Below, piece by piece: positions 23,592-42,141 of a DNA stretch of 48,756 nt (its first letter is position 1; every line of letters starts with the position of its first letter). Origin of the DNA: Balneolaceae bacterium ANBcel3 (GTDB taxonomy: Bacteria > Bacteroidota > Rhodothermia > Balneolales > Natronogracilivirgulaceae); NCBI GenBank assembly GCA_030012235.1, contig JASCXY010000004.1, positions 1 to 48,756 of the forward strand, written 5' to 3'. The position numbers and the translations under genes are program-made. The notes beneath the pieces were generated by a model. That model was not told the origin of the DNA and ran no database searches. It was given only the letters and a program-made list of their open reading frames with translations.

Positions 23592-24108
23592 TTTATCCCC
23601 CACAAAACAGCGCTCATTGGTATGACCGTGTACTTCCGGTTTAGAAGCAATCAGAGAGTAGTATCTTCAAATGACTTCATGATCCTTGAAGTTTAAGTTC
23701 ACATCTGTAAATCTACTATAAAGCATATGACTGAAATGGTAACCGAATATCCTCATAATCATAGGTACACTATTCCGTAAGGAGAGCCCGGGCGGGTCAT
23801 CCGTAATGTTCATGCTCTTCCATTTTGCACACTTTTTTCCTCATTTTTATCCCTTTTTTTCCAACCTGTAACCCATTATCAAACAGGCATCAAAAAAACG
23901 ACCGCCAACGACACTTTTCTCTTTTCTTTTGATTAGAAAAGTGCTTTATTACTCTATGTATCGCCATGTTTGTTTTTATTTTTATTAAGAACCTGCTTTT
24001 ATATTGAATAGGTTGCTACGAATATTCCACATGGTTCAGGGTTGTTTATTGTTTTTATTCTTCTTTAATTTTGCATAAATATTTACCACACTTTTAGACC
24101 ACTTTTGC
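23592..24108. other. Intergenic region between divergent AraC-type and LacI-type genes
   Basis: About 517 bases without a gene. It holds a 9-bp inverted repeat CACTTTTCT/AGAAAAGTG (23912-23920 and 23935-23943, 14-base loop). Overlapping its right arm is AGAAAAGTGCTTTATT (23935-23950), which resembles the 28297 palindrome at 12 of 16 positions. A promoter-like pair lies near 24042-24073. No tRNA or small ORF is evident. Confidence 0.5.
24042..24073 (+). promoter_or_regulatory. Candidate promoter of the LacI-type regulator
   Basis: TAATTTTG at 24066-24073 matches the TAnnTTTG -7 consensus. A TTG at 24042-24044, 21 bases upstream, fits the -33 element. It lies 35 bases before the ATG at 24109. 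Pattern match only. Confidence 0.45.
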
Positions 24109-25164
24109 ATGAAGGTAACCTTACGAGACATTGCATCTGCCACCGGATTCTCCATTTCTACAGTATCCAGGGCACTTCGCGGAGAAGGCCGTATTTCTGA
24201 AGAACACAGGCACGAAATTCTGGCAAAAGCCCACGAAATGGGCTATGAACTACCAACAGGCAGAAGAAGTATCCCAAAAAACCAGCCTCCTCACATTGCC
24301 ATTATCACACAATTTGAGACCGGTGAATTCTACTCCTGCTTTTTTGAGGGCTTTTCTATCGCTTCACTACAAAAAGGGGTTCAGGTAAGCCTTTTTAGTG
24401 TATCGCATGACTATACAAAAGTGGATACACTGATCAATAATTTAAGGGCACTCGGTTATTCCGCTGCTGTAGTTTTTGTTCCCGAGCTTAAGGAGGAACA
24501 GTACAAAAGGCTGCTGCATGCTATTCCAAAGGATTTCCCGGTTATCTCATGTTCAAACATTAATAATCCCGTACTGGATACAGTCACCTTTGATGCCTAC
24601 CGGGGAGCGTCGCTCGTTGCCGAACATTTCTGCAAGCAAGGGTATCGCAAGGTGGGTATCATTGAAGGCCCGCAGGAAAAGCCGGAAGCACGTTTTCGTA
24701 CCAATGGGTTTACTGACTACATCAAACACGAGTCTATCTCCGAAATTGTCTGGTCATTCCCCGGTGACTATACTCACGATGGCGGAATCCGTGCATTTGA
24801 GGCTCTCAAAGAAGCCAGTGATGTACCCAGAGCCATATTTGCTGCCAATGATGCCATGGCATTTGGTTTTATGGAATCCGCCCGGGCCCAGGGCTGGCGT
24901 TTTCCGCAGGACATCGCTTTGGCCGGATACGACAGCCTTCCGCTGTGTAAATATCATTACCCTCAATTGACTTCTGTAAATACAAATTACACCTTATTGG
25001 CTAAAAACACTCTGGAAACACTCCTTTCCAGGATCGGACGGCCGGTAAGCCACCAGGGAATTGTTAGCCTGGTTCCTGTAAGTCTCGATATTCGTGAATC
25101 CAGTGTGTATGCTGAAGATGCGGAGAAGCATCCACCAACCCAAAAAGCTGCCATAAAAGTCTGA
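24109..25164 (+). CDS. LacI-family transcriptional regulator
   Basis: The 351-residue product starts with the LacI helix-turn-helix: VTLRDIASATGFSISTVSRALRG and the hinge region RHEILAKAHEMGYE. A periplasmic-binding-protein-like sensor domain covers residues about 60-335 (AAVVFVPELK, TVTFDAYRGASLVAEHF, AIFAANDAMAFGFMESARAQGW). Such regulators repress or activate sugar genes in response to a sugar or sugar acid. It directly precedes a TRAP transporter operon in the same orientation (132-base gap), so it most likely controls that operon. The palindrome at 28297-28312 has the central CG and AT-rich arms typical of LacI operators and is a candidate target. Confidence 0.92.
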   Translation: MKVTLRDIASATGFSISTVSRALRGEGRISEEHRHEILAKAHEMGYELPTGRRSIPKNQPPHIAIITQFETGEFYSCFFEGFSIASLQKGVQVSLFSVSHDYTKVDTLINNLRALGYSAAVVFVPELKEEQYKRLLHAIPKDFPVISCSNINNPVLDTVTFDAYRGASLVAEHFCKQGYRKVGIIEGPQEKPEARFRTNGFTDYIKHESISEIVWSFPGDYTHDGGIRAFEALKEASDVPRAIFAANDAMAFGFMESARAQGWRFPQDIALAGYDSLPLCKYHYPQLTSVNTNYTLLAKNTLETLLSRIGRPVSHQGIVSLVPVSLDIRESSVYAEDAEKHPPTQKAAIKV

Positions 25165-25296: not shown

Positions 25297-26352
25297 ATGC
25301 TGAAGTGTGTTTTTCCTTTTAAGTTATTCACGGTTTTTGTTCCGTCAGCACCCGGCGTAAAGAATATGGTACTGTGGGCTCTGCCCCTCTTTTCCGTATT
25401 TCTTTTTTTAGGATCATGCAACAAGGCCGATGATCATGAGGATACCAGAACCATTATTTTGGCTCATGCCATGCATACCAATCATCCGGTATCCATAGCC
25501 ATGGCTCAGATGGCTGAAGACATTGAAGAAAAAACCGATGGCCGGATGCGCATAACCATTTATCCGGCCGGCCAACTGGGAAATGAACGTAAACTATTAG
25601 AGCAGATTCAGCTGGGTGTTATTGGCTTGACCAAAGTATCTACAGCCACTCTTGAAAATATCGTTCCCGCGATGCGTGTTTTCAGCCTGCCGTATCTGTT
25701 CCGGGATAACGATCACAGTACGAAGGTCTTTGACGGAGATCTTGGCAAAGAACTGCTCCTGGAAGGTGTTCCCTACGGACTTCGAGGGGTCGGTTACTAC
25801 GATGCAGGAAGCCGAAGTATTTATACCACCGACCGGGCGGTGGAGACTCCGGACGATCTCGCAGGATTAAAAATCCGTGTGATGGAAAGTGTCATAGCCA
25901 TGCAGTTTATGAGAACCATGGGAGGATCTCCCACCCCGCTTTCTTATGGCGAATTATATACCGCTTTTCAGGGTGGAATTGTTGATGGTGCAGAAAACAA
26001 TCCCCCCAGCTTTTTTACATCCAGACACTATGAGGTATGTAATTATTATATCCTGAATGAGCATACAACCATACCTGACATCCTGGTAATCGGAGAGTCT
26101 TTATGGAATTCACTGTCCGAGCAGGAACAAATCTGGCTTCAGGAGGCCATTGATGCTTCTGTCCTCCATCAACGACAGCTATGGGAAGAATCCGAAGAAG
26201 TTTCGATGCAGGCGTTCCGCGATGCCGGTGTGAACATCATATATCCTGACAAAGAGCCTTTTCGTGAAGCTTCCAGACCCTTATATGATCTCATCCGGGA
26301 TAACGATCCGGAGCTTTATGAGTGGGTGGAAAGAATACGAAACATACCATAA
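25297..26352 (+). CDS. TRAP transporter solute-binding protein, DctP family, lipoprotein
   Basis: The 351-residue product carries a lipobox (LGSC, Cys-41), so the binding protein is probably tethered to a membrane rather than free. The mature part shows the DctP fold: TIILAHAMHTNHPVSIAM, YPAGQLGNERKLLEQIQLG, and GLKIRVMES with the Arg that usually pairs with the substrate carboxylate. LSYGELYTAFQGGIVDGAENNP follows. Substrates of this family are mostly organic and sugar acids. With a LacI-type regulator in front and a glucuronoxylan cluster nearby, a uronate is a sensible guess but unproven. ATG at 25297 and ATG at 25366 are both possible; the later start leaves an uncharged signal peptide, so the first is preferred. 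Confidence 0.9.
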   Translation: MLKCVFPFKLFTVFVPSAPGVKNMVLWALPLFSVFLFLGSCNKADDHEDTRTIILAHAMHTNHPVSIAMAQMAEDIEEKTDGRMRITIYPAGQLGNERKLLEQIQLGVIGLTKVSTATLENIVPAMRVFSLPYLFRDNDHSTKVFDGDLGKELLLEGVPYGLRGVGYYDAGSRSIYTTDRAVETPDDLAGLKIRVMESVIAMQFMRTMGGSPTPLSYGELYTAFQGGIVDGAENNPPSFFTSRHYEVCNYYILNEHTTIPDILVIGESLWNSLSEQEQIWLQEAIDASVLHQRQLWEESEEVSMQAFRDAGVNIIYPDKEPFREASRPLYDLIRDNDPELYEWVERIRNIP

Positions 26353-26366
26353 ATCAAAAGATATCC

Positions 26367-26867
26367 ATGCTTAGAAAAAGAATTGATCAATACACAAGGC
26401 TGGCTCTGTTGATTATTATGTCCCTTTTGGTTCTGGATGTTGTATGGCAGGTATTTACAAGGTATATCCTGCAGTCACCCAGTACATTTACAGATGAGCT
26501 GGCCCGTTTTCTTCTCATTTGGGTAAGCTTACTGGGCGGCGCCTACTACAGCGGAAAGAATATTCATATTTCTGTAGAAGTACTACCGTCGCGCCTGAGT
26601 CCACAGAACAGAAAAAAGCTACAGATTTTTATCAAAGCGCTGGTGTGTGTCTTTGTCTTTTCTGTTTTTGTCATCGGTGGCATCTATCTGATGTACACCA
26701 TTCGGCATCAGATTACCCCCGCACTGCAAATTCCCATGGCCCTGGTTTACCTGATCGGCCCTGTCAGCGGATCCCTGATTTGTTTTTACCAACTGGATGA
26801 CATTCGTCTGATTCTTTCAGGAAAAGATCCGCAGGATGTTGAAGCGGCCCCTGAAGTAACGTCCTGA
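26367..26867 (+). CDS. TRAP transporter small permease, DctQ family
   Basis: From ATG at 26367, 14 bases after the dctP stop, the product is 166 residues with four membrane helices. The first helix region (LALLIIMSLLVLDVVWQVFTRY) and the following TDELARFLLIWVSLLGGAYYSG are the DctQ signature. A GTG at 26322 inside dctP was rejected as the start. DctQ forms the membrane complex with DctM and is needed for sodium-coupled uptake of the DctP-bound solute. Confidence 0.92.
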   Translation: MLRKRIDQYTRLALLIIMSLLVLDVVWQVFTRYILQSPSTFTDELARFLLIWVSLLGGAYYSGKNIHISVEVLPSRLSPQNRKKLQIFIKALVCVFVFSVFVIGGIYLMYTIRHQITPALQIPMALVYLIGPVSGSLICFYQLDDIRLILSGKDPQDVEAAPEVTS

Positions 26868-26929
26868 GACCGATATCATGAATGCACAAAAAAGAGTAAA
26901 ACGCATAGCCTGTATAACTGATTGAGTTT

Positions 26930-28228
26930 ATGGAACTGACCGAAATACTGATCCTGATTCTTACATTTATCGTCCTGCTGGCTATTGGGGTTCCCATTGC
27001 GTGGACACTCGGCATTGCCGCCCTGCTCACATTGCTGGTTTCTATGGATTCACTGACGGCCGTTTCGGTCCTGGCTCAGCAGTTTGTTACCAGCCTGGAT
27101 AGTTTCGCATTGCTCGCCATCCCGTTTTTCATTCTGGCCGGCCAGATCATGAATCAGGGAGGAATAGCCACCCGCCTGATCCGTTTCGCAAAAAACCTGG
27201 TGGGTGCACTTCCGGGCGGACTTGCGCACATTAACGTGGTAGCGGCCATGTTGTTTGGTGCAATCGCCGGTTCCTCGGTTGCAGCAGCCTCGGCCATTGG
27301 CAGTATTTTGGGCCCGAGAATGGAAAAAGAAGGGTACTCGAAAGAGTTCGGCGCGTCCATAAATATTACTTCTTCTACCATGGGGTTGGTGATACCTCCT
27401 TCCAATGTGCTGATTGTCTATTCTCTGGCCAGCGGTGGCACCTCTATCGGAGCGCTTTTTATTGCCGGATATGTTCCAGGCATCCTTACCGGATTGATAT
27501 TGATGGGTATGGCCACGATTTGGGCTATCCGTAAAAACTATCCAACCGGAGAACGGTCTTCCGTTTCTGAGCTTTCAAAATCTTTTGGAGCCGCATTACC
27601 CAGCCTGCTTCTTTTGATAATTGTCATTGGCGGTATTGTAGCAGGAATATTCACGGCTACCGAAGCCGCTGCCATCGCAGTGGTCTATACTCTGATACTC
27701 GGTTTCATTTACCGTGAAATTACACTGGCCAGCCTCCCTGAAATCCTGATGGGCGCTATTAAAACGACTTCGATTGTGATGCTTTTAATCGCCGCTTCCA
27801 TTAGCATGTCGTGGGTGATGTCCTATGGGAACTTGCCTCAAAGCGCCAGTGAGGTGATGCTCGGACTTTCGGATAATAAGATCGTCATCCTGATAATTAT
27901 CAATTTACTTCTGCTTTTCGTAGGGATGTTTATGGATATGACTCCGGCTGTACTCATTTTTACACCCATATTTCTTCCGGTTGTTACCGAGCTGGGCATT
28001 CATCCGGTTCATTTTGGCATTATCATGGTCATGAACCTTTGCATCGGCATCTGTACCCCACCGGTCGGTACGTTGCTGTTTGTCGGTATCAGTATTGCCA
28101 ATACCACGATTGAAAAAATCATCCGGCCCCTGCTTCCTTTGTTTGTGGCCATGATCGTAGCTCTGCTTGTTGTTACTTTTTGGCCAGATCTCAGTTTATG
28201 GCTGCCCCGGCTTTTTGGACTGATGTAA
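26930..28228 (+). CDS. TRAP transporter large permease, DctM family
   Basis: The 432-residue protein has about 12 helices and the DctM landmarks: IPFFILAGQIMNQGGIATR near residue 65, AGSSVAAASAIGSILGPRM near 115, VIPPSNVLIVYSLASGGTS near 155, and a C-terminal GICTPPVGTLLFVG. It forms the ion-coupled translocation pore with DctQ. Its gene ends the TRAP operon; it follows dctQ after 62 bases. Full length and no frame damage. Confidence 0.95.
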   Translation: MELTEILILILTFIVLLAIGVPIAWTLGIAALLTLLVSMDSLTAVSVLAQQFVTSLDSFALLAIPFFILAGQIMNQGGIATRLIRFAKNLVGALPGGLAHINVVAAMLFGAIAGSSVAAASAIGSILGPRMEKEGYSKEFGASINITSSTMGLVIPPSNVLIVYSLASGGTSIGALFIAGYVPGILTGLILMGMATIWAIRKNYPTGERSSVSELSKSFGAALPSLLLLIIVIGGIVAGIFTATEAAAIAVVYTLILGFIYREITLASLPEILMGAIKTTSIVMLLIAASISMSWVMSYGNLPQSASEVMLGLSDNKIVILIIINLLLLFVGMFMDMTPAVLIFTPIFLPVVTELGIHPVHFGIIMVMNLCIGICTPPVGTLLFVGISIANTTIEKIIRPLLPLFVAMIVALLVVTFWPDLSLWLPRLFGLM

Positions 28229-28248: not shown

Positions 28249-28340
28249 AAAGCCCGCCTTTTGTGCAAACCTTTTGCCCGTTCCCTCTGAGTTAGCATAA
28301 AAGCGCTTTTATCATTAAAAAAACAAGATAGTCGGGCTTT
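28249..28340 (+). terminator. Possible long-loop terminator after the TRAP operon
   Basis: AAAGCCCG (28249-28256) is the exact reverse complement of CGGGCTTT (28333-28340), which runs into TTTAT. The loop is long (76 bases) and itself contains the 28297-28312 palindrome, so a branched structure is possible. It lies 21 bases after the dctM stop. Weak, because of the loop size. Confidence 0.35.
28297..28312. promoter_or_regulatory. Perfect 16-bp palindrome, candidate LacI-type operator
   Basis: ATAAAAGCGCTTTTAT is a perfect palindrome centred on the CG step, the form bound by LacI/CcpA-type regulators. It lies about 190 bases before the CotH-type gene and about 70 after dctM. The regulator at 24109 is the nearest candidate to bind it. 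Confidence 0.45.
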
Positions 28341-28499
28341 TATCTCCTAAATTTCAGATATTGAAATAACCCATCGTTTTATTGACCATGAAGCTGTGGA
28401 TCTGAGGCCATCTGTTCTGATGAGTCTGCACATGTGTTCAGGCCGCCTTATCAGGCATACATCCGGCTTGTCACCAATTGTTCCTTTTACACTTTTTTT

Positions 28500-31400
28500 A
28501 TGATGTTTTCAAACCGCTTTTTTTTAACTCCCTTTCTTTTTCTCTTTTTTTTAGCAGTATTCATTCAACCGTCCATTGCTCTTCCGCAACTTCATCTTAA
28601 TGAGATCGTTGCCTCGAATGCCTCCGGGCTGGAAGATGAAGACGGAGATACCGAAGACTGGATTGAAATTTACAACAGCGGTGATACCGCCATACATCTG
28701 GAAGGGTTCGGCCTTTCGGATGACTATGACCGTCCGTTTCGTTGGGAATTTCCTGATGTTTCTATTCAACCGGGAGAATTCATGGTCATCTGGGCTTCCG
28801 GAAAAGACAGAAAGGACCCCCAGAGTGAGTTGCACACAAACTACCGAATTTCTTCTGCAGGGGAAGAAGTCCTGCTTACTACACCGGATGGAGAACGAAT
28901 CGATGAATTACCACCAACTCCTATTCCCACAGACATCAGTCTTGGCCGATATCCGGACGGTACCGGTGACTGGTATTTTTATACCTCTCCTACTCCGGGA
29001 GCTCCCAATACATCGGATGGCTATCAGGAACTCCTCGATCCGGTTGAATTCTCGGTCGAGGGAGGATTCCATAGTGGAGATCTGACCTTAACACTTTCTC
29101 ATCCGGATCCCGATGCCGTTATTATCTATACCCTGGACGGCTCCGAACCTTCTCCGGATAATCTGGATGGCGTATCGTATCCTTACATGCACCAGTACAG
29201 GGATAATAACTTTAACACAACTGAACGCCACTTCCGATCCCGAACCTATGAGAGTCCTATTCAAATAACGGACCGAACCAGTGAACCCAACTATATGTCT
29301 GAGTTCCAAACGTTTCACAGCGATCAGCACAGGCCCTGGCAATCGCTGTTCAAAGGTACCGTTGTTCGTGCACGTGCTTTCAAGGGAGGCGCTGTTTCTG
29401 TTAATCCTAAGACCCACACATACTTTATTACACCGCAACAGGAAAACCGCTATTCACTCCCGGTCATCTCTATTGCCATCCAGGAAGACCACCTTTTTGA
29501 CTACAATACAGGAATTCATGTCCCCGGTCGTATTTTTGATGAAGAAAACCCCTGGGGTGCCGATGGGGGCGCCAATGCAAATTACCACCAGCGAGGCATT
29601 GAATGGGAGCGACCTGCCTCTTTGGAGCTCTTTGAGCCTGATAACCCCTATCCGGAGTTAAGACAAAATATGGGCATCCGAATTCACGGTGGATGGAGCC
29701 GCGGCGAACCGCAAAAATCACTGCGTCTTTATGCGAGAAACATGTATGGAGAAAGCCGGTTTAATCATCAAATGTTTCCGGAGTTGCCTTATGCTTCTTT
29801 TAACCGTGTGATGCTTCGAAATTCCGGAAACGATTTTAATCGCTCTCTTTTCAGAGATGCCGCCATGCAGCGGGTGGTCGAACACATGAAGTGCGACACT
29901 CAGGCCTACCGTCCGTTCGTCATCTTTTTAAATGGCGAGTATTGGGGAATCATGAATATGCGAGAACGATACGACCGCCATTACCTGGCCAGAGTACATG
30001 GTGTAAATCCTGATAATGTAGACATTTTGACCAGTAATGCGGTGGTCAAAGAAGGTGATAATACTCACTATAATGAAACCCTGGAGTACATGCAGGATAA
30101 CGATATGTCGGATCCGGATCACTATGCGTACATTCAGACCCGAATAGATACAGATAATTACATTGATTATCTCGTTGCCCAATTGTATGTCAATAACAGT
30201 GACTGGCCGGGAAATAATATTGACTTCTGGAGATACCGAACCGACGAATATCAGCCCGATGCCCCCCCACAGCACGACGGACGCTGGAGATGGCTTATTT
30301 TTGATATGGATTTTGGTTTTCACTTATACGGTGGTTCCGGTCATTATTCATCGCAATACAATATGATCCGTCATGTCTTGGGACTTGACCAACACGCACA
30401 TGGGAATCCCGAATGGTCAACCCGGCTCCCAAACTACCTGTTTGAAAACGAGCAATTTACTAATGATTTTATCACCCGATATATGGATCAGCTGAATACC
30501 GCATTCCGCCCTTCGCGTGTAAAATCCATCCTCGAGGAAATGGCCGCACATATAGAACCAGATCGTGATGACCAATTTGTACGCTGGGGTAGCGGCTGGG
30601 AAGGTATCGGCCACATGGAACGTTTTGCAAATGAACGTCCAGAAGTTGCACGTCGCCATATACGGGAACATTTCCTCCCTTCCACCAGTTTGGAGCGCCG
30701 GCTGACCGTAGATGTATCCGATCCGGCAGAAGGACACATACGGGTCAATACCATAGATATCACTCCGGAAACACCGGGTGTGGATGAAAATCCCTGGCCA
30801 TGGTCTGGAACCTATTTTACCCAACGAGACCTCACATTAAAAGCAGAGCCATCTGCAGGTTTCCTGTTTTCTCACTGGGAGGGAAATATCGGCGATGCCG
30901 ATCCGAATGATCCTGAGATAACCTTTACCATGACAGGCAATCACTCGGTTACTGCCATCTTTGAACCGGGAGTAAGTGAAGACTTGTTTCCTGATCCTCA
31001 TTATTTGATAAGCGGGGCATATGAGTTCTCATACTGGGCTCCGGATGCCATTGGTGGAACATACCCGGATCATATGGCTTTTGTCTACATGGATGAACTG
31101 GATCCGGGAATAGACGCCAACGTGGAAGGATTCACTAATGGAGTGTACTCCTATAGTTCGCGTACACGGGTAAATGGCCTGAATGACAATGGATTTGCTT
31201 TTATAAATACCAGTAACGAAGAAGGAAACCCGGGATATCCCGGTGTCCGCCTGGGAGGAGCCCTGCTTGCTATTAATACCATAGATGTTGAAGATATTAC
31301 GGTCAGCTGGGATGGAATGACGGTACGGCCAAACTCCAGAGTATATAACCTCCGGCTGCAGTATCGTATTGGAGATACGGGCCCTTTTACGGATGTTAAA

Positions 31401-31907
31401 GACGGTGATGGCCAACCGGTAGAATATGCACGCAATAATACCGAAGGACACCGCCAAACGATGGGTCCGGTAACGCTGCCTTCTGAAGTGGAAGAACAAG
31501 CTTATGTTCAACTTCTCTGGAGATATTATTATACCGGTGAACAACTGGACGAAGATAGCGGACAACGGACCAAGCTGGCTGTTCCTCAGATCATGGTCAC
31601 GCCAAAGAGTATTATTGCTTCCGAAGCAGATCCTGTCTCTCCGAATAGCTATGAGCTCATGCAAAATTATCCTAATCCATTCAATCCAATGACCTCCATC
31701 AGGTATGCACTTCCTGTCGAGAGTCAGGTGCGGATTGAGGTTTTTGATGTCATGGGTCGGTTGGTAGAAACTCTGGTCAATGAACATCAGCGATCTGGGG
31801 TGCATCATGTCACCTGGGACGCTTCAGAAATGGCCAGTGGGATCTATTTATACAGGATTACTACCGGAGATTTTATGCAGACTAAACGCATGACCCTTCT
31901 ACGTTAA
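28500..31907 (+). CDS. Secreted CotH-like protein with lamin-tail domain and type IX sorting tail
   Basis: From ATG at 28500 the product is 1135 residues (a GTG at 28434 would add 22 that do not look like a signal peptide). A signal peptide ends near residue 28. A lamin-tail domain follows (QLHLNEIVASNASGLEDEDGD, then DWIEIYNSGD), then a chitobiase-C-like segment (VIIYTLDGSEPS) near 205-300. The CotH kinase-like domain runs from about 390 to 690 (MGIRIHGGWSRGEPQKSLRL, then FVIFLNGEYWGIMNMRERYD and IFDMDFGF). An InlB-type repeat (GNHSVTAIFEPG) and a beta-rich region come next. The end is a sorting tail, LMQNYPNPFNPMTSIRYALP followed by GIYLYRI. CotH proteins are atypical protein kinases in spore coats. 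The function of bacterial secreted versions is not known. Confidence 0.85.
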   Translation: MMFSNRFFLTPFLFLFFLAVFIQPSIALPQLHLNEIVASNASGLEDEDGDTEDWIEIYNSGDTAIHLEGFGLSDDYDRPFRWEFPDVSIQPGEFMVIWASGKDRKDPQSELHTNYRISSAGEEVLLTTPDGERIDELPPTPIPTDISLGRYPDGTGDWYFYTSPTPGAPNTSDGYQELLDPVEFSVEGGFHSGDLTLTLSHPDPDAVIIYTLDGSEPSPDNLDGVSYPYMHQYRDNNFNTTERHFRSRTYESPIQITDRTSEPNYMSEFQTFHSDQHRPWQSLFKGTVVRARAFKGGAVSVNPKTHTYFITPQQENRYSLPVISIAIQEDHLFDYNTGIHVPGRIFDEENPWGADGGANANYHQRGIEWERPASLELFEPDNPYPELRQNMGIRIHGGWSRGEPQKSLRLYARNMYGESRFNHQMFPELPYASFNRVMLRNSGNDFNRSLFRDAAMQRVVEHMKCDTQAYRPFVIFLNGEYWGIMNMRERYDRHYLARVHGVNPDNVDILTSNAVVKEGDNTHYNETLEYMQDNDMSDPDHYAYIQTRIDTDNYIDYLVAQLYVNNSDWPGNNIDFWRYRTDEYQPDAPPQHDGRWRWLIFDMDFGFHLYGGSGHYSSQYNMIRHVLGLDQHAHGNPEWSTRLPNYLFENEQFTNDFITRYMDQLNTAFRPSRVKSILEEMAAHIEPDRDDQFVRWGSGWEGIGHMERFANERPEVARRHIREHFLPSTSLERRLTVDVSDPAEGHIRVNTIDITPETPGVDENPWPWSGTYFTQRDLTLKAEPSAGFLFSHWEGNIGDADPNDPEITFTMTGNHSVTAIFEPGVSEDLFPDPHYLISGAYEFSYWAPDAIGGTYPDHMAFVYMDELDPGIDANVEGFTNGVYSYSSRTRVNGLNDNGFAFINTSNEEGNPGYPGVRLGGALLAINTIDVEDITVSWDGMTVRPNSRVYNLRLQYRIGDTGPFTDVKDGDGQPVEYARNNTEGHRQTMGPVTLPSEVEEQAYVQLLWRYYYTGEQLDEDSGQRTKLAVPQIMVTPKSIIASEADPVSPNSYELMQNYPNPFNPMTSIRYALPVESQVRIEVFDVMGRLVETLVNEHQRSGVHHVTWDASEMASGIYLYRITTGDFMQTKRMTLLR

Positions 31908-33098: not shown

Positions 33099-34682
33099 TC
33101 AACGCAATTTCAAAACAATCAGCGACTTGGCCGGCAAGTCAACCACCAGTTTCCCATCAGAGAATCGAGCTCCGTTAAAAGTCTGAGGTGATACAACATC
33201 GGGTTGCTCAAAGGTATTATGTGCGTTTAGTGCATCTGCGGTCAGAATCCTGCCTGAAACTTGTCTGAACTCATCGCCACGAAGATCAATTTCTATTCTT
33301 CTGGACTCATGAGGATCCACGTTGGTCATTGTAACATGCACGCCATCATCGTTTCTGGATGCGGTTGCCGTAACTGCTTCCAAAACTATGTCATCGTACA
33401 CATACTCTCCCGCGTCCAGATAAAAAGAAAGATAGTCTGCATCATGGTGCACCGTATAAAATTCGAAAACATGATATGTAGGAGTCAGAATCATCTGATC
33501 TTCATCGGTGAGAATCATCGCCTGCAATACATTCACTGTTTGGGCGATATTTGCCATTTTAACCCGATCCAGGTGCCGGTGAAACATATCAAATGAAACA
33601 GAAGCCGTTAACGCATCTCTTAAAGCATTTTGCTGATGCAGGAAACCGGGATTGGTGCCTTCCAGGGGTTCATGCCAGGTTCCCCATTCACCGACAATCA
33701 GCCAGACTCTTTTTTCCGGATCATATACATCCATAATAGATTTATGCCGGTACAAGAGCTCGTCAAAAAACTGAGCGCCTTCCATCAGCTCTACATACTC
33801 CGCTTCAGTAAAATCCAGAGCTTCTCCTTTCTTCGTTTCCCAGGATCCGGTAATCGTGTAATGATGAAGATCCAGGCCTTCCATCATATGACCGGCTTCC
33901 CTCATAAGAACCTCTGTCCACTCGTAATCATCACCAGCGGCTCCGGCAGCAATTCGGAAAGGCTCCGAATCTCCCATTGGATGTAGGAACGTTGCAAATT
34001 GCTTATATAAGTCGGCATAGAACTGGGGACGCATATGTCCGCCACATCCCCAACTTTCATTTCCAACTCCCCAATAATGTACATTCCAGGGGTCTTCCCT
34101 TCCGTTTTCTTTACGGAGGTCTGCCATAGATCCGGGACCAGGATGAGTCATATATTCCCACCACCGGGCCATTTCCTGTACAGTTCCACTGCCCACATTT
34201 CCAACAATAATAGGTTCTGTTTCCAATGCGTCAACCAGTTCCATAAACTCATGTGTTCCTACCGCATTATTATCTACGACACCGCCCCACAAAACATTGA
34301 TAATGGACGGCCGCTCTTCAACAGGACCAATTCCATACTCCCAGAAATAATAATCGGCAAAACACCCGCCGGGCCAGCGTATGTTTGGAATTTGAATGGC
34401 TTTTAACGCGTCAACAATATCCTGACGAATATGGAAGTTCCCCTCATCGTCTTCCCTCCATAAGCCATCATAAATACCTCTGCCAAGATGTTCGGCAAAA
34501 TGTCCGTATATGTGTTTATTAATAACTTCTTCCGATTGATCGACATTAATTACCATTCTTTGTGCCGATTGTCCAGTTGCAACATCTGGCAACTGAACAC
34601 CTAACAGTACAACCAGCAAGAATACATATCCCTTAGATATGAACTGCTTCCAAAGAGCGTTTAAATGAATTTTTTTTGCCAT
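33099..34682 (-). CDS. Alpha-L-arabinofuranosidase, GH51, exported
   Basis: The 527-residue protein begins with a signal peptide (GYVFLLVVLLGVQLPDVATG) and continues with GH51 landmarks: NKHIYGHFAEHLGRGIYDGLW at 55-75, IRWPGGCFADYYFW at 101-114, and YWGVGNESWGCGG with the acid/base Glu-209. LIVGEWGTWHEP holds the nucleophile Glu-332. It removes arabinofuranosyl side groups from arabinoxylan or its oligomers. Export means it acts in the periplasm or outside, unlike the cytoplasmic GH51 of many Gram-positive bacteria. It is last in the cluster and sits behind a strong terminator, so it may have its own promoter. Confidence 0.93.
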   Translation of the reverse strand: MAKKIHLNALWKQFISKGYVFLLVVLLGVQLPDVATGQSAQRMVINVDQSEEVINKHIYGHFAEHLGRGIYDGLWREDDEGNFHIRQDIVDALKAIQIPNIRWPGGCFADYYFWEYGIGPVEERPSIINVLWGGVVDNNAVGTHEFMELVDALETEPIIVGNVGSGTVQEMARWWEYMTHPGPGSMADLRKENGREDPWNVHYWGVGNESWGCGGHMRPQFYADLYKQFATFLHPMGDSEPFRIAAGAAGDDYEWTEVLMREAGHMMEGLDLHHYTITGSWETKKGEALDFTEAEYVELMEGAQFFDELLYRHKSIMDVYDPEKRVWLIVGEWGTWHEPLEGTNPGFLHQQNALRDALTASVSFDMFHRHLDRVKMANIAQTVNVLQAMILTDEDQMILTPTYHVFEFYTVHHDADYLSFYLDAGEYVYDDIVLEAVTATASRNDDGVHVTMTNVDPHESRRIEIDLRGDEFRQVSGRILTADALNAHNTFEQPDVVSPQTFNGARFSDGKLVVDLPAKSLIVLKLR

Positions 34683-34709
34683 GGGTTTGTAGTATAAATT
34701 ATGTTTTAA

Positions 34710-34722
34710 TGTAACGCATACA
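34710..34722. promoter_or_regulatory. Imperfect palindrome upstream of GH51
   Basis: TGTAACGCATACA has TGTA/TACA arms and a central ACGCA, similar in plan to LacI-type half-sites. It lies 28 bases before the GH51 start and near a TTGACT (minus strand, 34730-34735). Weak pattern evidence. Confidence 0.25.
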
Positions 34723-34738
34723 CTTATTAAGTCAAGAT

Positions 34739-34817
34739 AAAAAAAAGTCCGGATTCAGCAAATAAATACAGATACCGCCCCCTCAAAGACAGTGATGCAA
34801 TTGCCGACCCGGACTTT
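34739..34817 (-). terminator. Intrinsic terminator/attenuator between GH10 and GH51
   Basis: On the minus strand AAAGTCCGG (34817-34809) pairs with CCGGACTTT (34752-34744), immediately followed by a run of T's (eight in all, 34746-34739). The loop is 56 bases, long for a simple terminator, but stem plus U-run is a textbook ending for the GH10 transcript. It would separate GH51 from the rest of the cluster. Confidence 0.7.
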
Positions 34818-34843
34818 AAATTATTTATACCTTATAAATAAGG

Positions 34844-36004
34844 TTATCCTTCGTCTTTAGTCAAATTAAGAATTTCATAGAATGCCGGTTTTGGCTGAAA
34901 CTCCCGATCAAAAATCAGAGGATAGTTCGTACGGCCCCTGACCGGCCAGTTGTTTTTCCAGGAGTCGCCGTCTGTTACGCCCCAGAAAGTTACTCTGGAC
35001 ATGTTATCACTATGACGAAGGTATATTTCAAACACATCAGCATAGCGTTGGGCCAGTTCTTGCTCCATTTCTTCTGGAAGTCCGTCTGGCCATGGATTGA
35101 GTTCATCTCTAAGTTCTGCACTCATTCCAACATCTGCACCCATATAATCGAAAGCCGCTGGTAAAACATCGATATCCAGCTCTGTCACCATTACATCAAT
35201 GCCCAAAGCAGCAAAATCAACTACGGTTTGCTCTACCTCTTCCAGCTCCGGCCAGTCCATCATGAAATGAGCCTGTGTACCAATACCCGTTACCGGGGCA
35301 TCGTTTTCCTGAAGATACTTAATCAACTCAACCGCACCGGCACGTTTGGATGGGATTTCGAGAGAATAGTCATTGTAATAGAGCTCCGCATCAGGATCAG
35401 CTTCTCTGGCATATTCAAACGCTTTTACCAGATAATCCTGGCCAATAATTCTGTACCACAGCGATTCCCGCAGAGAACCATCTTCATTCAGCGCTTCGTT
35501 TACCACATCCCAGGATTGTACACGACCTTTATATCGCCCTACTACCGTATGGATATGATCGCGCATGCGCTCCAGCAATGCCTCACGTGTCAACAGCTCT
35601 CCCTCTTCATCTTCAAAAACCCATCGGGGAGTCTGGCTGTGCCATACCAGGGTATGTCCGGTAATAAACATGTCGTTTTCTTCAGCAAATTCAACCAAGA
35701 GGTCGGCCTGCTCAAAATCATACTGTCCGGGTTCCGGATGGATGACTTCCCACTTCATAATGTTTTCCGGAGTGATGGCGTTAAAATGCCTTTCAACCAG
35801 CTCAAGACCCTGGGTATCCACTCCAAAAATATGATTACTGTTAAGAGCTGTTCCAATCATAAAAGCGTCTTTATATGCTTCATGAAGTGACGGTACTTCG
35901 TCTTTGGCAACAATATCAGCTCCGGCATCTTCTACAGGTGCTGTATCACAAGAAGACAAAATGAGCATGCATGGGAGAATCAAAAATAATAGTCGTATAG
36001 TCAT
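34844..36004 (-). CDS. Endo-1,4-beta-xylanase, GH10, lipoprotein
   Basis: The 386-residue protein has a lipobox (LSSC, Cys-19), so it is anchored in a membrane, probably the outer one. The GH10 barrel shows HFNAITPENIMKWEVIHP, GHTLVWHSQTPRWVF, WDVVNEALNE with acid/base Glu-170, and VMVTELDID with nucleophile Glu-275. VTFWGVTDGDSWKNNWP is the usual C-terminal motif. It cuts the xylan backbone and releases oligomers whose methylglucuronate is at the non-reducing end, the substrate of GH67. No carbohydrate-binding module is present. The gene is downstream of the symporter with a hairpin in between. Confidence 0.95.
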   Translation of the reverse strand: MTIRLLFLILPCMLILSSCDTAPVEDAGADIVAKDEVPSLHEAYKDAFMIGTALNSNHIFGVDTQGLELVERHFNAITPENIMKWEVIHPEPGQYDFEQADLLVEFAEENDMFITGHTLVWHSQTPRWVFEDEEGELLTREALLERMRDHIHTVVGRYKGRVQSWDVVNEALNEDGSLRESLWYRIIGQDYLVKAFEYAREADPDAELYYNDYSLEIPSKRAGAVELIKYLQENDAPVTGIGTQAHFMMDWPELEEVEQTVVDFAALGIDVMVTELDIDVLPAAFDYMGADVGMSAELRDELNPWPDGLPEEMEQELAQRYADVFEIYLRHSDNMSRVTFWGVTDGDSWKNNWPVRGRTNYPLIFDREFQPKPAFYEILNLTKDEG

Positions 36005-36059
36005 AAGTATAAAGTTTTATTGTTTGTTTGCTTTAAAAGAACACAGCAAGAAAACGAAG

Positions 36060-36086
36060 TCCTGCCGGCTGAAACCGCCGACAGGA
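36060..36086 (-). terminator. Hairpin between the GPH symporter and GH10 genes
   Basis: Five pairs (TCCTG/CAGGA), one mismatch and four pairs (CGGC/GCCG) close a seven-base loop. On the minus strand it is followed by CTTCGTTTTCTT, a poor U-tract. It may attenuate or protect rather than fully terminate. Confidence 0.45.
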
Positions 36087-36110
36087 TTGATTGATTTAAA
36101 CCATTGCGGA

Positions 36111-37565
36111 TTAAGCGTTATCCTCAGCTTCTTTTTGGGCTTTGCGTTCTTCAAGTTCTTTTTCAATTTGAACCATCAACGTGTCTTTGAGCGGATACAG
36201 AAGCATCAGCAAGCCACCGATTATTCCAAATATGGCAGGATAAAAACTCATAAGAAGACGGATTCCAAGAATCGCCTCCTCGGTTTGTTCCACATTAGGT
36301 ACAAAGTTGTGCAATTCAAGCACCCATCCTACAAAAGCACCGCCAAGAGTGAGACCCAGTTTCAGTGCAAACAATGATGCGGCCATGATAAGTGCTGTTG
36401 CCCTTCGATTGAACTTCCATTCGCCATAATCCGCGGCATCGGTATATATAGCCCACTGGAGAACAGATACCGACCCAAAAAAGAACGAAACCAGGACATT
36501 CAGAAAGAATATAAGTAAGACCTGGGATGGGTCAACGAAGAAGAACAAAGCCGAGAAACCGGCGCTAAGCATCAGGAAATAGGAGTAAATATTCTTTTTA
36601 TCGATGCGCTTCGTAAACAGCTTGGTTGTTACAGCTCCGATCAATGTGGAAAAAGAACCTACCGTTACAAATGCAGAGGTAAAAATTGCATACGACAGCG
36701 GTATGGTCCAGCCAAACAGAGCGAGCTCTCCTTCACCCACATAGTATCGGAAATAGTAGGCTGTTGATGACCCCCTCATTACGATATAGGTAAGCTGGAA
36801 AAGTGTTGCTCCTGCAATTAGCATCCAGGGCTTATTCCGGATTAAATCCCCAAGGTCATGACTAACTTTATTTCGAACAACCTTGGCAGGGGTTACCCGT
36901 TCCCGGGTCATGAAAAACGTGGTCATCAGCAGAAGAGCAGCAAGCAGTCCATAAGCCACCATCGTCATTTGCCATCCCAGCGCTTCATTACCGCCGCCAA
37001 ATAGTTCCACCAGTGACAGAGTAGCAAAACCTACAATCAACTGACCTACAAATGCGGCCGCAAACCGATAAGAAGATACTTCGGTTCGCTCTGAAGAGTT
37101 CGGAGTAATGACTCCCATCAATGCGGCATAAGGAACATTCACAGCGGTGTACATCATGACCAAAAGAATGTAGGTCACATACGCATAGATCAACTTCCCG
37201 GAGCCGGCTAAATCCGGCACGGTAAATGTTAAGACACCTGCAACGGCAAGCGGTATAGCAAGACCCGCCAGATACGGCCTGTACTTTCCCCACCTGGATT
37301 CGGTACGATCGGCAATCATACCCATAATCGGATCGTTTACGGCATCCCAGACCCGGGTCACAAGCATCATCGTACCCATTGCTGCTGCTGACAATCCGAA
37401 AACATCCGTATAAAAAATGGGCAGAAAGAGGACAAACATCTGGAAATAGAGATTGGAGGCCATATCTCCAAGACTATATCCAAACTTTTCCTTGAAGGTA
37501 AGCCTGGGCCGTTCCAATTGCTCCCGGCTTATCCCCTCAATCGGGGTTGTTTCACTTTTTTCCAT
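36111..37565 (-). CDS. GPH-family (glycoside-pentoside-hexuronide) cation symporter, MFS
   Basis: The 484-residue, twelve-helix protein has the GPH landmarks in its first half: LGDMASNLYFQMFVLFLPIFY and LVTRVWDAVNDPIMGMIADRT followed by RWGKYRP. These hold the Asp residues that couple sugar uptake to sodium or protons. Family members such as XylP, MelB and UidB take up xylosides, melibiose and glucuronides. Its place between GH67 and GH10 suggests xylose or short xylo-oligosaccharides as substrate; which of them is not visible. The C-terminus is a charged cytoplasmic tail (EKELEERKAQKEAEDN). Confidence 0.9.
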   Translation of the reverse strand: MEKSETTPIEGISREQLERPRLTFKEKFGYSLGDMASNLYFQMFVLFLPIFYTDVFGLSAAAMGTMMLVTRVWDAVNDPIMGMIADRTESRWGKYRPYLAGLAIPLAVAGVLTFTVPDLAGSGKLIYAYVTYILLVMMYTAVNVPYAALMGVITPNSSERTEVSSYRFAAAFVGQLIVGFATLSLVELFGGGNEALGWQMTMVAYGLLAALLLMTTFFMTRERVTPAKVVRNKVSHDLGDLIRNKPWMLIAGATLFQLTYIVMRGSSTAYYFRYYVGEGELALFGWTIPLSYAIFTSAFVTVGSFSTLIGAVTTKLFTKRIDKKNIYSYFLMLSAGFSALFFFVDPSQVLLIFFLNVLVSFFFGSVSVLQWAIYTDAADYGEWKFNRRATALIMAASLFALKLGLTLGGAFVGWVLELHNFVPNVEQTEEAILGIRLLMSFYPAIFGIIGGLLMLLYPLKDTLMVQIEKELEERKAQKEAEDNA

Positions 37566-37665
37566 AATAATTTCACTAAGATTTTCTGTATCTGCTTCCT
37601 GTTTTTACGTATTTCCGGAAAAATTGACCATGAACTTCATTTGAGTAAAGATAAAAACAGAATGA

Positions 37666-37694
37666 GGTGCCGGCCATTCCGGGTGGCCAACACC
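37666..37694 (-). terminator. Hairpin between GH67 and GPH symporter genes
   Basis: GGTG/CACC (37666-37669, 37691-37694) and GGCCA/TGGCC (37672-37676, 37684-37688) form a two-part stem about 20 bases after the GH67 stop. On the minus strand TCATTCTGTTTTTATC follows. Partial terminator or processing stem. Confidence 0.45.
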
Positions 37695-37714
37695 GTTCTG
37701 CGAAAAACATCCTA

Positions 37715-39904
37715 TCAGTTATACCATGGATCTGGCACATGAATAATATTTTCCAGCTCTATGTAGTGCTGTAAATCGTGTTCCGGTTGCTCGTATTCTT
37801 CAGGAATAGGCATTCCGGAGAACGATTGAAAATAGAGCACACAGGAGTTCCGCCAGCGAACCGCATCTCTTTCCTGAATGCTGAGCAGGGCTTTTACATG
37901 CTCAAAACGTTCCTGATCAATGAGTCCTTCCAAAGAATCCCATGTTTCCTGCATCCATCGAACGGTTTCAACGCCTTTATAATATTTGTGTACCAATTCA
38001 TCCCACAGAATCCTTCCGGAATTCATCGGATGATCCCAGGGAACATGATGAAACCATAACAGGTAATCATCAGGAATTTTATTCAGGTCGCCGAATACAG
38101 CAGCAACCTCCGGATGGAATTGTTCAACGGCATTTGATCCGGTTTCGGTGCGATCATACCCGATACCCCATTCCGTTGCCTGATGATAATAGACCGCCGT
38201 CCAGTCCGCTCTCGGAAGATCTGCGGTCCATGGTGCAGGGCCATAATGATGACCTTGTGCATAAAGGTGCGTCAGACCCAGCGGCGACCGGTAATTTACA
38301 CCGGCTTCTTTGGATTCCATCATAATTTCTTTCATGGGCTCAATGACTTTTTCATCATTTGAGAACGTCATCCGTATCCACTCTTCGGCGAGTTCTTCCG
38401 CTCCCAGTGTATAATCCCAGGCCATTCGTCCGTAAGCATACCAGCTGGACTGTACAAACGGATGTCCCGTCCAATTCCGGTCGGTTCCGGGATTTATTAC
38501 TCCCGCCATTCCTGTATGCTCATAGTCAAATACTTCACCTGCGATGATTCTCCCCACGGTAGTTCCTTCTCCTTTTACCCGGGTATCATCTCTGAGAACC
38601 TCCTCATAGTAGGTTCCTTTATAGGCCAGATGAAAATTAAACCCAAAATACTCCTGTGTAATCTGCAGTTCGAGTATGGTATTTGTATTTGGAAGAGCTC
38701 CAAATAGCGGAGAAAAGGGCTCTCTGGGCTGGAAATCAATAGGTCCGTTTTTAACCTGAACCGTCACATTATCCATAAAACGGCCATCCAGAGGGAGAAA
38801 CTCATCATAAGCTTCACGAAAACGGTCTTCCTGTTCAGGATCATATACAAAAGCTCTCCAGATTACCAGTCCACCATGCGGCTCCAGTGCTCTGGCCAGC
38901 ACATTTGCCCCATCGGCATGATCCCTTCCATACCCGTGCGGCCCCGGCTGCCCCTCTGAGTCTGCTTTAACCAGGTATCCTCCAAAATCAGGGATATAAG
39001 AGTAGACCTTATCGGTAATTTCATTCCAAAACTCCTGCACTTCGGGATCCAGCGGATCGGCAGTATCCAGTCCGCCCAGCACTACTGGAGAATCAAAGAA
39101 TACCGATAAATAGACCTGAATCCCATATGGACGAAAAATATCTGCAAGGACGGCTACTTTTTCAAGAAACTGATCGGTCAGAATTTCCGGATTGGCATTT
39201 ACGTTATTAATGGCCGTACCGTTAATTCCCAATGAGGCATTAAAACGGGCATAGTCGGTATATCTCGGATGTTTATAGTCCGGAAGTGTGCCCCACTCCC
39301 AAAGCGACAGTCCGGCATATCCCCGCTCCACCAGGCGATCCAGGTTATCCCAGTGATTCACTGTTCTATGGCGTACCCTGGGAGCGCTTTTTACATCGAT
39401 CGATTCAATACTCTGCTCCGTCTGCAATTCCCTGAGCAGGTGAAATGCCCCATACAGGACACCGATGTCTTCGTTGGCTGCAATTACGGTCAGTTTGTTT
39501 CCGGAATGATCCATGCGTCTGATTAAGAACCCTTCAGGCCCTACTTCCTTTAGCGCATCCTCCAATTCCAGTGAAGAGATGATCTGTGAGTTAGATGGGG
39601 TTCCGGCGACTAGTGCTCCGTCGCTATTAATGCCGGAGCATACTTCAATCGGACGGTCAAGCAGTCCGCCAAGCCCCATTTTCAACTCGGATTTTGTGGC
39701 AGACATGGTTTCAGAAGAAGTTTCCAGAACCAGGTGTTGCAATTGATCTTTATACGACTGGCGCAATTCGTTGTCATTCACCTTGTCATACCTCAACCAC
39801 ATGCGATAACCGTCCTCGGCAAACGAGGATGGGGCTAGCATTAGAGAAATAAATAAAACGAGGGTTAAACGTTTAAATAAGGAATTAATAGGGATGTTTT
39901 TCAT
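37715..39904 (-). CDS. Alpha-glucuronidase, GH67, exported
   Basis: From ATG at 39904 the product is 729 residues with a clean signal peptide ([17 protein letters not shown]); an ATG at 39928 would add eight. GH67 catalytic regions are present: [11 protein letters not shown] with the proposed acid Glu (residue 317), [17 protein letters not shown] with Asp-390, and [10 protein letters not shown] with Glu-418 as the second base. The enzyme removes 4-O-methylglucuronate from the non-reducing end of aldouronic acids produced by GH10 xylanase. In Bacillus relatives it is cytoplasmic; here it must act in the periplasm or outside. It is 31 bases after the SDR gene in the same operon. Confidence 0.95.
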
Positions 39905-39935
39905 GTAAAACCGATTATTATAAATCAAAAAAAGA

Positions 39936-40697
39936 TTAAAAACCTATGGAGTTTCCACCGTCTACCGGCAAGTTCACTCCGGTAATAAACTCCGAGGCAT
40001 CAGAAGCCAGAAAGAGAGCCGCATTCGCAATATCCTGAGGAACGCCCAGTTTACGCATGGGGGTACGGCTTATTACCTTATCCCGGCGTTCGGTATCGGC
40101 GTCAAATGCCCGCCTGGACATCGGGGTGTCAATAAAACCGGGGGCAATGGCATTCACGCGGACTCCTTCCGGAGAAAGATCCACGGCCATCGACCGTGTT
40201 AATCCCAGTATGGCGGATTTGGAAGCTGTGTAAGCACTTACTCCGGGAATACCGTAAATGGATGCCATCGAGGTTATCATGATGATGGAACCGCTTTTAC
40301 GCCGGGTCATAAAACGGGCCACTTCCCGTGTAAGAGCGAAGGCTCCGTTAAGATTGACCTGCAGAATCTTTTGAAACTCTTCATCCGTGACATCCAGCAT
40401 GGGCTTCTTCATATTGATGCCACAGTTATTCACTAATACATCAATAGGTCCATATTCCGACTCAATTCCTTCCACCAGGCCGGGTAACAACTCCAGATTA
40501 GTAATATCATTAACGATATAAGAAACCTGGCCTTCCATGCTGTCGGCCGCTTCTTTCAGTTTGTCTTCGGTCAAATCCGTGATGATTACATGGGCACCAA
40601 AACCGGCAAAAGCCCGGGCCATACACAGGCCCAGGCCACTACCGCCGCCAGTAATCAATACACGTTTATTTTTTATATCTGAGGTTAATTCAGCCAT
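39936..40697 (-). CDS. SDR-family oxidoreductase, likely acting on a sugar acid
   Basis: The 253-residue product is a classical short-chain dehydrogenase: the Rossmann motif [14 protein letters not shown] near residue 17, [10 protein letters not shown] near 91, catalytic Ser in [10 protein letters not shown], and YTASK near 155 with the Tyr and Lys. The C-terminus [14 protein letters not shown] is the usual substrate-loop end. Asp after the second strand (ITDLTED) suggests NAD rather than NADP preference. Context between xylA and GH67 suggests a sugar or uronate-pathway step, such as a fructuronate/mannonate-type reductase. The family alone cannot tell; 5-keto-gluconate reductase and other roles are possible. 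Confidence 0.85.
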
Positions 40698-40763
40698 AAA
40701 GTAAAACGAGGTAATTAGATTAAATACTTACATACGGAGCACAAACCTCCGTTTTATTCATAA

Positions 40764-42116
40764 TCAGGAGTAACGATTGATGATATTCTCAAACAACTCC
40801 TGTTTTCCACTGATTTGCTTGGGCTCTCCATTTTTAATGGCAATTTGACGAAGATCATCCATAGAAAGAGCACCTTCTTCAAACTCTTTTCCTTTTCCGG
40901 AATCGAAAGAAGCATATCGTTCTTTACGAAGCTTTGGATACGGTGAGTTGGAAAGCAGGTTATCCGCAGCAATCAGAGCTTTGGCAAACGTATCCATACC
41001 ACCGATATGCGCATGGAAAAGATCATCGAGATCTGTAGAGTTTCTTCGAAGTTTGGCGTCAAAGTTCACACCACCTCCCTGAAGTCCACCGGACTCAAGA
41101 AGAACCAGCATGGCTTCGGTAACCTCAAAGTGGTTGACCGGGAATTGATCGGTATCCCATCCATTTTGATAATCACCTCTGTTGGCATCCACACTGCCCA
41201 GCATTCCGGCATCTGCGGCAACCTGCAGTTCATGCTGGAAGGTATGATTAGCCAGTGTAGCATGATTCACCTCAATATTGATCTTGAAGTCTTTATCAAG
41301 GCCATAGTGACGCAGGAAACCAACCACTGTCGCAGAATCAAAATCATACTGGTGCTTGGTCGGCTCAGCCGGCTTGGGCTCTACAAAGAATGTTCCTTTG
41401 AATCCCTGTGCACGTGCATAGTCTTTTGCCATATGAAGAAAACGGGCAAGATGGTCAATTTCCCGCTTCATATTGGTATTGAGAAGCGACATATAGCCCT
41501 CTCTTCCACCCCAGAACACATAGTTTTCGCCATTCAATGCGATAGTTGCATCGAGGGCACGCTTCACTTGTGCACCGGCATAGGCAACAACATCAAAATT
41601 CGGATTTGTAGCTGCACCATTCATGAATCGCGGGTTTGAAAACAGATTCGCTGTTCCCCAAAGAAGCTTCACTCCGGACTCTTTTTGTTTTTCTGCGGCA
41701 TAATCAACCATTGCTTGCAGGCGTCGCTCGCTCTCCTCAATGGTGTCCCCCTCATCTACTACATCCACATCATGAAAACAGTAATACGGAGCCCCCAGTT
41801 TGGTAATAAACTCGAATGCAGCATCCATTTTTTCTTTAGCTGCCTGAACAGGGTCACTGCTTTTTCCCCACGGGAAGTTTCTCGGTCCCCAGCCAAATGG
41901 ATCGTTTCCGGTATCACACAAGGTATGCCAGTAAGCAACCGCAAACTTAAAATGCTCTTTCATGGTTTTGCCGGCAACCACCTTATTTTCGTCATAATAA
42001 CGAAATGCCATCGGATTATCTGTTTCCGGACCTTCAAATGCAATTTTTCCGATACCTTTAAAATATTCCTTGTCTCCAATAACTACGTTACCAGAGGATT
42101 TCGCTTCTTTACCCAT
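40764..42116 (-). CDS. xylA: Xylose isomerase
   Basis: The 450-residue length is that of the class II xylose isomerases with an N-terminal extension. Key elements: [15 protein letters not shown] with the catalytic His-115, [38 protein letters not shown] with the metal-binding Glu, and [18 protein letters not shown]. It interconverts D-xylose and D-xylulose using two divalent metal ions in the cytoplasm. It lies 25 bases after xylB and 66 before the SDR gene, all on one strand, so it is in the same transcript. Confidence 0.97.
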
Positions 42117-42141
42117 AATGTTATCTTTTATTTTAGATTTA

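Follow-up and report, generated by a model that had tools for sequence, protein, structure and literature searches.

A palindrome upstream of a CotH-domain gene in a Balneolaceae bacterium is a predicted operator of a LacI-family regulator whose sites adjoin ammonium transporter and glutamine synthetase genes

Here, we describe a 16-bp palindrome in a 48,756-nt stretch of DNA from Balneolaceae bacterium ANBcel3, referred to below as the window. The palindrome lies in an intergenic region between dctM, the last of three TRAP transporter genes that follow a gene for a LacI-family regulator, and a gene for a CotH-domain protein that also carries LTD and Por secretion-tail domains (Table 1). It is located 68 bp past the dctM stop codon and 187 bp before the ATG of the CotH gene at 28500, or 121 bp before an alternative GTG at 28434. 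The CotH gene is the only gene whose start faces the palindrome within 450 bp and, because the palindrome is 3′ of dctM, control of the TRAP genes by this site is not expected. Elsewhere in the window, a 781-aa open frame (44357-46702) that is divergent from xylB has no match in Pfam.

Table 1. Positions of the features discussed; coordinates refer to the window unless a locus is named
Feature	Position	Strand	Remarks
Look-alike AGAAAAGTGCTTTATT	23935..23950	.	2 mismatches to the 12-bp core; unsupported
TRAP-adjacent LacI-family regulator	24109..25164	+	Probably not the protein that reads the palindrome
TRAP transporter genes dctP, dctQ, dctM	25297..28228	+	Pfam and NCBIfam; upstream of the palindrome
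Perfect 16-bp palindrome ATAAAAGCGCTTTTAT	28297..28312	.	Core AAAAGCGCTTTT at 28299-28310; predicted operator of the LacI-family regulator encoded on contig C471
TATTGA, possible -33 element	28359..28364	+	54 bp past the site center; suggestive only
CotH-domain gene with LTD and Por secretion-tail domains	28500..31907	+	Pfam; most likely target
Look-alike TTAAAAAGCGTTTTTAA	43887..43903	.	Upstream of xylB; 1 mismatch to the 12-bp core; unsupported
About 110-base leader	L066, about 1000-1235	-	
About 110-base leader	L199, about 1650-1765	+	
About 110-base leader	L211		
About 110-base leader	L219		

The palindrome is self-complementary over all 16 bases around a central CG, as the first-pass annotation of this DNA had described. 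It is the sole perfect 16-bp palindrome in the window and the sole copy in the genome that is symmetric over all 16 bases (one zero-mismatch match). Its symmetry alone is no evidence of function, because 0.89 such palindromes are expected per window by chance, and at least one occurred in 55 of 100 first-order Markov simulations. PMC4052901 describes LacI-family operators as even palindromes of 16-22 bp with a central CG, and places >75% of LacI-family sites 30-140 bp upstream of the start codon; with 16 bp and a central CG, the palindrome has this form, and it lies 187 or 121 bp before the two candidate starts of the CotH gene. The LacI-type operator plan that had been proposed for it is supported by the sequence, as the site is an even palindrome with a central CG and belongs to a recurrent, mostly intergenic family.

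This recurrence is evident in the genome itself and in related genomes. In the 3.2-Mb genome, AAAGCGCTTT occurs in 15 copies versus one for a control with reversed letters, and the core AAAAGCGCTTTT in eight versus none. A search for the 16-mer with up to three mismatches, which had been suggested as a check, yielded 61 matches versus 32 for the reversed control, and the random scatter of the motif that would have argued against an operator was not observed. Over 97 genomes, including this one, AAAAGCGCTTTT occurs 511 times versus 35 times for the control. Twelve of the 15 AAAGCGCTTT sites in the own genome and 84 of 106 sites in relatives are intergenic, against a coding share of 82% in the loci, with genes in the fetched loci of both called as the longest open frames. 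The 106 sites comprise 71 from eight chosen genomes (4-14 sites each), 30 from 30 other genomes (one each, some of them lacking the regulator described below), and five from G037. The core AAAAGCGCTTTT is therefore enriched, mostly intergenic, and conserved across Balneolales.

Two weaker look-alikes, at 23935 and 43887, had been proposed to tie the TRAP, CotH, and xylan genes into one regulon. Both exist, whereas the regulon tie is unsupported rather than refuted: the variant class AAARCGYTTT without AAAGCGCTTT is hardly enriched in the genome, with 44 matches versus 35 in the control (59 and 36, less 15 and 1). Near-matches to the 12-bp core in the window are not clearly due to chance by their count, because there are more of them than simulated (two with one mismatch versus 0.23 expected, and 11 with two mismatches versus 4.0 expected).

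Three proteins encoded in the genome score above the Pfam cut-off for a LacI DNA-binding domain. The first-pass annotation had assigned the palindrome to the one next to the TRAP genes, in a single sugar-acid regulon of TRAP, CotH, and xylan genes. Proximity and the LacI-like symmetry of the palindrome fit this assignment, as do the weak site at 23935 and a near-site in G007 (L050:4168), AGAAAGCGCTTCCT, which precedes the orthologue by 88 bp. Moreover, the TRAP-adjacent LacI has the same helix residues, I-S, as the regulator encoded on contig C471 (hereafter C471). Residues 15 and 16 of the helix set half-site bases 4 and 5, according to PMC2978694, and this rule cannot separate the two proteins because both have I-S. 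However, 20 of 59 genomes have no homologue of the TRAP-adjacent LacI at E 1e-40, and those among them with a completeness of at least 90% and with C471, 13 genomes in all, contain 70 sites versus two for the control. In nine loci of relatives with orthologues (49-79% identity), AAAGCGCTTT is absent, with one near-site each in L050 and L055, and five of the nine carry a different repeat, TTGAGCAAAnTTTGCTCAA, just upstream of lacI (TTGAGCAAA/TTTGCTCAA-type repeats). In the window, TTGAGCAAAnTTTGCTCAA has no match within three mismatches. The Pfam LacI match of this protein ends early at the hinge (1-43 of 46), and the sequence that follows, ELPTGRRSIPKNQ, is without the usual hinge pattern. Thus, the motif is neither found mainly where this regulator is nor near its orthologues. 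Because the motif is abundant in genomes without a close homologue and the orthologues carry another repeat, the TRAP-adjacent LacI is probably not the protein that reads the palindrome. The single sugar-acid regulon was also not borne out, the best conserved targets being amt and glnA, and we regard this assignment as highly improbable.

The surroundings of this regulator gene differ among relatives. xylB-xylA adjoins the orthologue in four of the nine loci. In the window and in G007, its neighbors are instead the TRAP genes, with a GH115 gene separating lacI from dctPQM in G007. In the window, the xylB-xylA-SDR-GH67-GPH-GH10-GH51-like cluster (33099-43620) is apart from lacI. From the comparison with L050-L055, the lacI/xylan locus seems to be split between lineages.

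C471 is a LacI-family protein of 336 aa encoded between a squalene/phytoene-synthase-family gene and purC. Its LacI domain is complete and the hinge is canonical, and CcpA and PurR are the solved structures that it matches best. All 45 examined loci with C471 orthologues encode AISTVSR in the recognition region and have purC nearby, and none of five look-alikes from genus g22 has either; because they lack AISTVSR and purC, these five proteins (47-49% identity to C471) were classified as non-orthologues, a reclassification made after inspection of the helices. The named relatives of C471 are from metagenome assemblies labeled Balneolales or Balneolaceae, except for one of 15 labeled Rhodothermaceae.

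The abundance of AAAAGCGCTTTT tracks this regulator. The 81 genomes with C471 have a mean of 6.0 sites (486 versus 25 in the control), whereas the 14 genomes without it have a mean of 1.3 (18 versus 9). The Mann-Whitney p values of 4e-7 overall and 7e-7 within family f3 are too small, because the genomes are related and phylogeny was ignored; only two or three losses of C471 may be independent. Before the g22 proteins were reclassified, the comparison was between 86 genomes (mean 5.7) and 11, or nine without the incomplete ones (mean 1.2). The incomplete genomes G001 (four sites versus one) and G015 (three versus none), which were left out of the 81-versus-14 count, contain sites despite having no regulator hit and run against the association. 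Conversely, some genomes have C471 yet few sites (G018 and G094, none; G009, one versus two; G027, one versus one; G039 and G093, one each).

Two further ideas were discarded. The third LacI-family protein, C30, has orthologues in the genomes of genus g22, in which the motif is not enriched. Autoregulation of C471 was rejected since no exact core is found just upstream of the regulator gene in 45 loci, in which two cores lie at far ends.

Among the targets found, amt and glnA are the best conserved. Upstream of amt, a core with at most one mismatch is present in 25 of 28 loci (24 of them exact), versus one of 28 for a control with at most two mismatches; the test comprised 30 loci among the 67 matches listed, two of which were omitted for short upstream sequence. 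In 19 of 21 amt loci, a TATTG[AC] element follows the site center at a distance of 55-59 bp. For glnA, the test comprised 30 + 20 loci from 63 genomes with a match, with one omitted for short upstream sequence. Of the 39 genomes with the regulator, 27 have a core with at most two mismatches (reversed control, 5 of 39), and in every one of the 27 it lies 148-192 bp ahead of the gene. Among ten genomes without the regulator, one has a core, at -43 (reversed control, 1 of 10). This difference has a Fisher p of 0.001, with nine of the ten regulator-less genomes belonging to one genus. In 14 of 22 glnA loci, the site center and a TTATATTTG-like box are 100-102 bp apart; the distance is 92-93 bp in five loci, 114 bp in two, and 83 bp in one. 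Judging from these promoter-like elements, the site would be roughly 90-110 bp upstream of the transcription start at amt and glnA. The steps of nearly one helical turn together with the distance from the promoter suggest contact or looping. The near-fixed spacing at amt and glnA points to activation or looping rather than simple blocking. A promoter spacing common to all targets, for which a -7 box scan was also run, was not found, and 113 oriented non-amt sites have no shared peak.

The sites adjoin genes of varied function. In the own genome, neighbors on the nitrogen side include an ammonium transporter gene and a gene for a type III glutamine synthetase (Pfam GSIII_N). Among the others are the gene for L-glutamate-gamma-semialdehyde dehydrogenase, a GH43 gene divergent from a transketolase gene, and genes for a CBM4_9-domain protein, a GPH-type sugar transporter, an enolase-superfamily protein, and an NFACT-domain protein, as well as the CotH gene in the window. 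Some copies in the own genome thus have sugar or xylan genes as neighbors (GH43, CBM4_9, and GPH-type genes), in line with the first-pass annotation. In relatives, site neighbors match glutamate synthase, GAPDH, citrate synthase, 2-oxoacid dehydrogenase E1 and E2, nitrite reductase NirB, L-lysine 6-transaminase, and HisC, several of them below model cut-offs because the genes are partial at locus ends. No purine genes are among the named neighbors. A global LacI-family regulon is defined, in PMC4052901, by >15 genes in at least seven operons and several pathways; the 12 intergenic sites in the own genome adjoin genes of several pathways.

Some of these loci have features of their own. Upstream of the L-glutamate-gamma-semialdehyde dehydrogenase gene, two operator-like sites lie 32 bp, i.e., about three helical turns, apart (L008/L009; G000:C312:5735-5782). 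Four genomes share, just downstream of a AAAAGCGCTTTT site, a highly conserved leader (CTGTATAACCGAACAGATTAACACCAACC ... TATGGGGTTGCGGGGTGACCACCTCGTAACCCTA) that is about 110 bases long and includes a long hairpin; it has no match in Rfam and is possibly an undescribed RNA element. L012 and L013 (G000:C479 and C481, both of 10654 bases) contain near-identical open frames in opposite orientation with a few amino-acid differences and represent a recent duplicate or a strain mixture in the assembly.

At the CotH gene, the TATTGA element lies at a distance from the site center close to the 55-59 bp seen at amt. This match was spotted post hoc and is only suggestive, because the 113 oriented non-amt sites share no such spacing. 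None of 30 loci with CotH homologues has a core, and 19 of these have at least 385 bp that is truly upstream (0 of 19), the other 11 being short on true upstream sequence owing to a late alignment start or a contig end. Because it is absent upstream of the CotH homologues in relatives, the site in the window is regarded as a lineage-specific member of the family. Overall, it probably belongs to a carbon/nitrogen regulon that is apparently undescribed, and would act on the CotH gene.

Altogether, these findings support a model, to which we assign a probability of about 0.65, whereby the palindrome is the operator of the global LacI-family regulator encoded on contig C471. A C471 dimer would bind the palindrome and alter transcription of the downstream CotH gene, which would be co-regulated with genes that serve ammonium uptake, the synthesis of glutamine and glutamate, the catabolism of amino acids, and central carbon metabolism. 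The likeliest effector would be a carbon- or nitrogen-status signal.

Other explanations were weighed against this model. The motif could be a genuine operator family that belongs to an unrelated transcription factor missing from the same genomes as C471, since the association with C471 is correlational and few of the losses are independent. However, LacI-family proteins typically have even palindromes with a central CG as their sites (1173 of 1303; PMC4052901), and the complete domain and canonical hinge of C471 also argue against this explanation, which we consider unlikely. Equally unlikely, in our view, is that the motif is real and the copy in the window a chance or nonfunctional match. 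The lack of conservation at CotH homologues and a background of about one AAAGCGCTTT match per genome in the reversed control fit such a match, but the palindrome is intergenic, faces the CotH start, and is unmatched in the genome in its full 16-base symmetry.

The self-complementarity of the palindrome and its position 68 bp past dctM would also be consistent with part of a transcription terminator. Against this, the sequence allows no more than a short A/T-rich stem around GCGC, no T run follows, the window has no Rfam matches, and members of the family precede genes at a near-fixed promoter distance. A terminator is, therefore, extremely improbable.

If C471 reads the palindrome, it resembles several described regulators in part. 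As proposed for C471, CcpA of Firmicutes is a global LacI-family regulator whose targets are carbon genes and some nitrogen genes; C471 matches CcpA structures best in sequence, and the CcpA cre consensus is a AAAGCGCTTT-like palindrome. By contrast, C471 scores 182 bits on TIGR01481 (NCBIfam), below the cut-off of 442.35, and amt and glnA are the best conserved targets here. PurR of Gammaproteobacteria is likewise a global LacI-family regulator that reaches nitrogen assimilation, as described in PMC4052901, and C471 adjoins purC; however, C471 scores 202.5 bits on NF007979 (NCBIfam; cut-off, 501), and its named site neighbors are free of purine genes. GapR, PckR, and GluR of Alphaproteobacteria, described in the same paper as often unclustered with their targets, are similar as global LacI-family regulators that are lineage-specific and control central carbon metabolism. 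They differ in that the paper gives 20-bp consensus sites for GapR and GluR and, in its passages on them considered here, makes no mention of ammonium or glutamine genes. UxuR2 of Algoriphagus, a LacI-family regulator with the hexuronic-acid TRAP transporter UxuPQM-II (PMC5507952), resembles the TRAP neighborhood in the window by gene neighborhood and concerns the TRAP-adjacent LacI and not the palindrome. Among titles and abstract openings in open-access PubMed Central, no such regulon in Balneolales was found.

A role in nitrogen balance is usually held by NtrC-, NtcA-, or GlnR-type proteins. We tentatively suggest, as a possibility at less than even odds, that Balneolales instead may have one LacI-family master regulator of carbon/nitrogen balance that, acting from a helically phased site ∼100 bp ahead of the promoter start, would activate both the uptake of ammonium and glutamine synthetase, and that would have been extended to secreted proteins such as CotH. 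From a single palindrome, the analysis arrives at an order-wide regulon that can be tested and for which a candidate regulator is named. It also cautions that the nearest LacI gene need not read the nearest LacI-like site. If the model is correct, nitrogen assimilation in Balneolales would be wired via a LacI-family protein, and some sugar-polymer genes would share the same switch.
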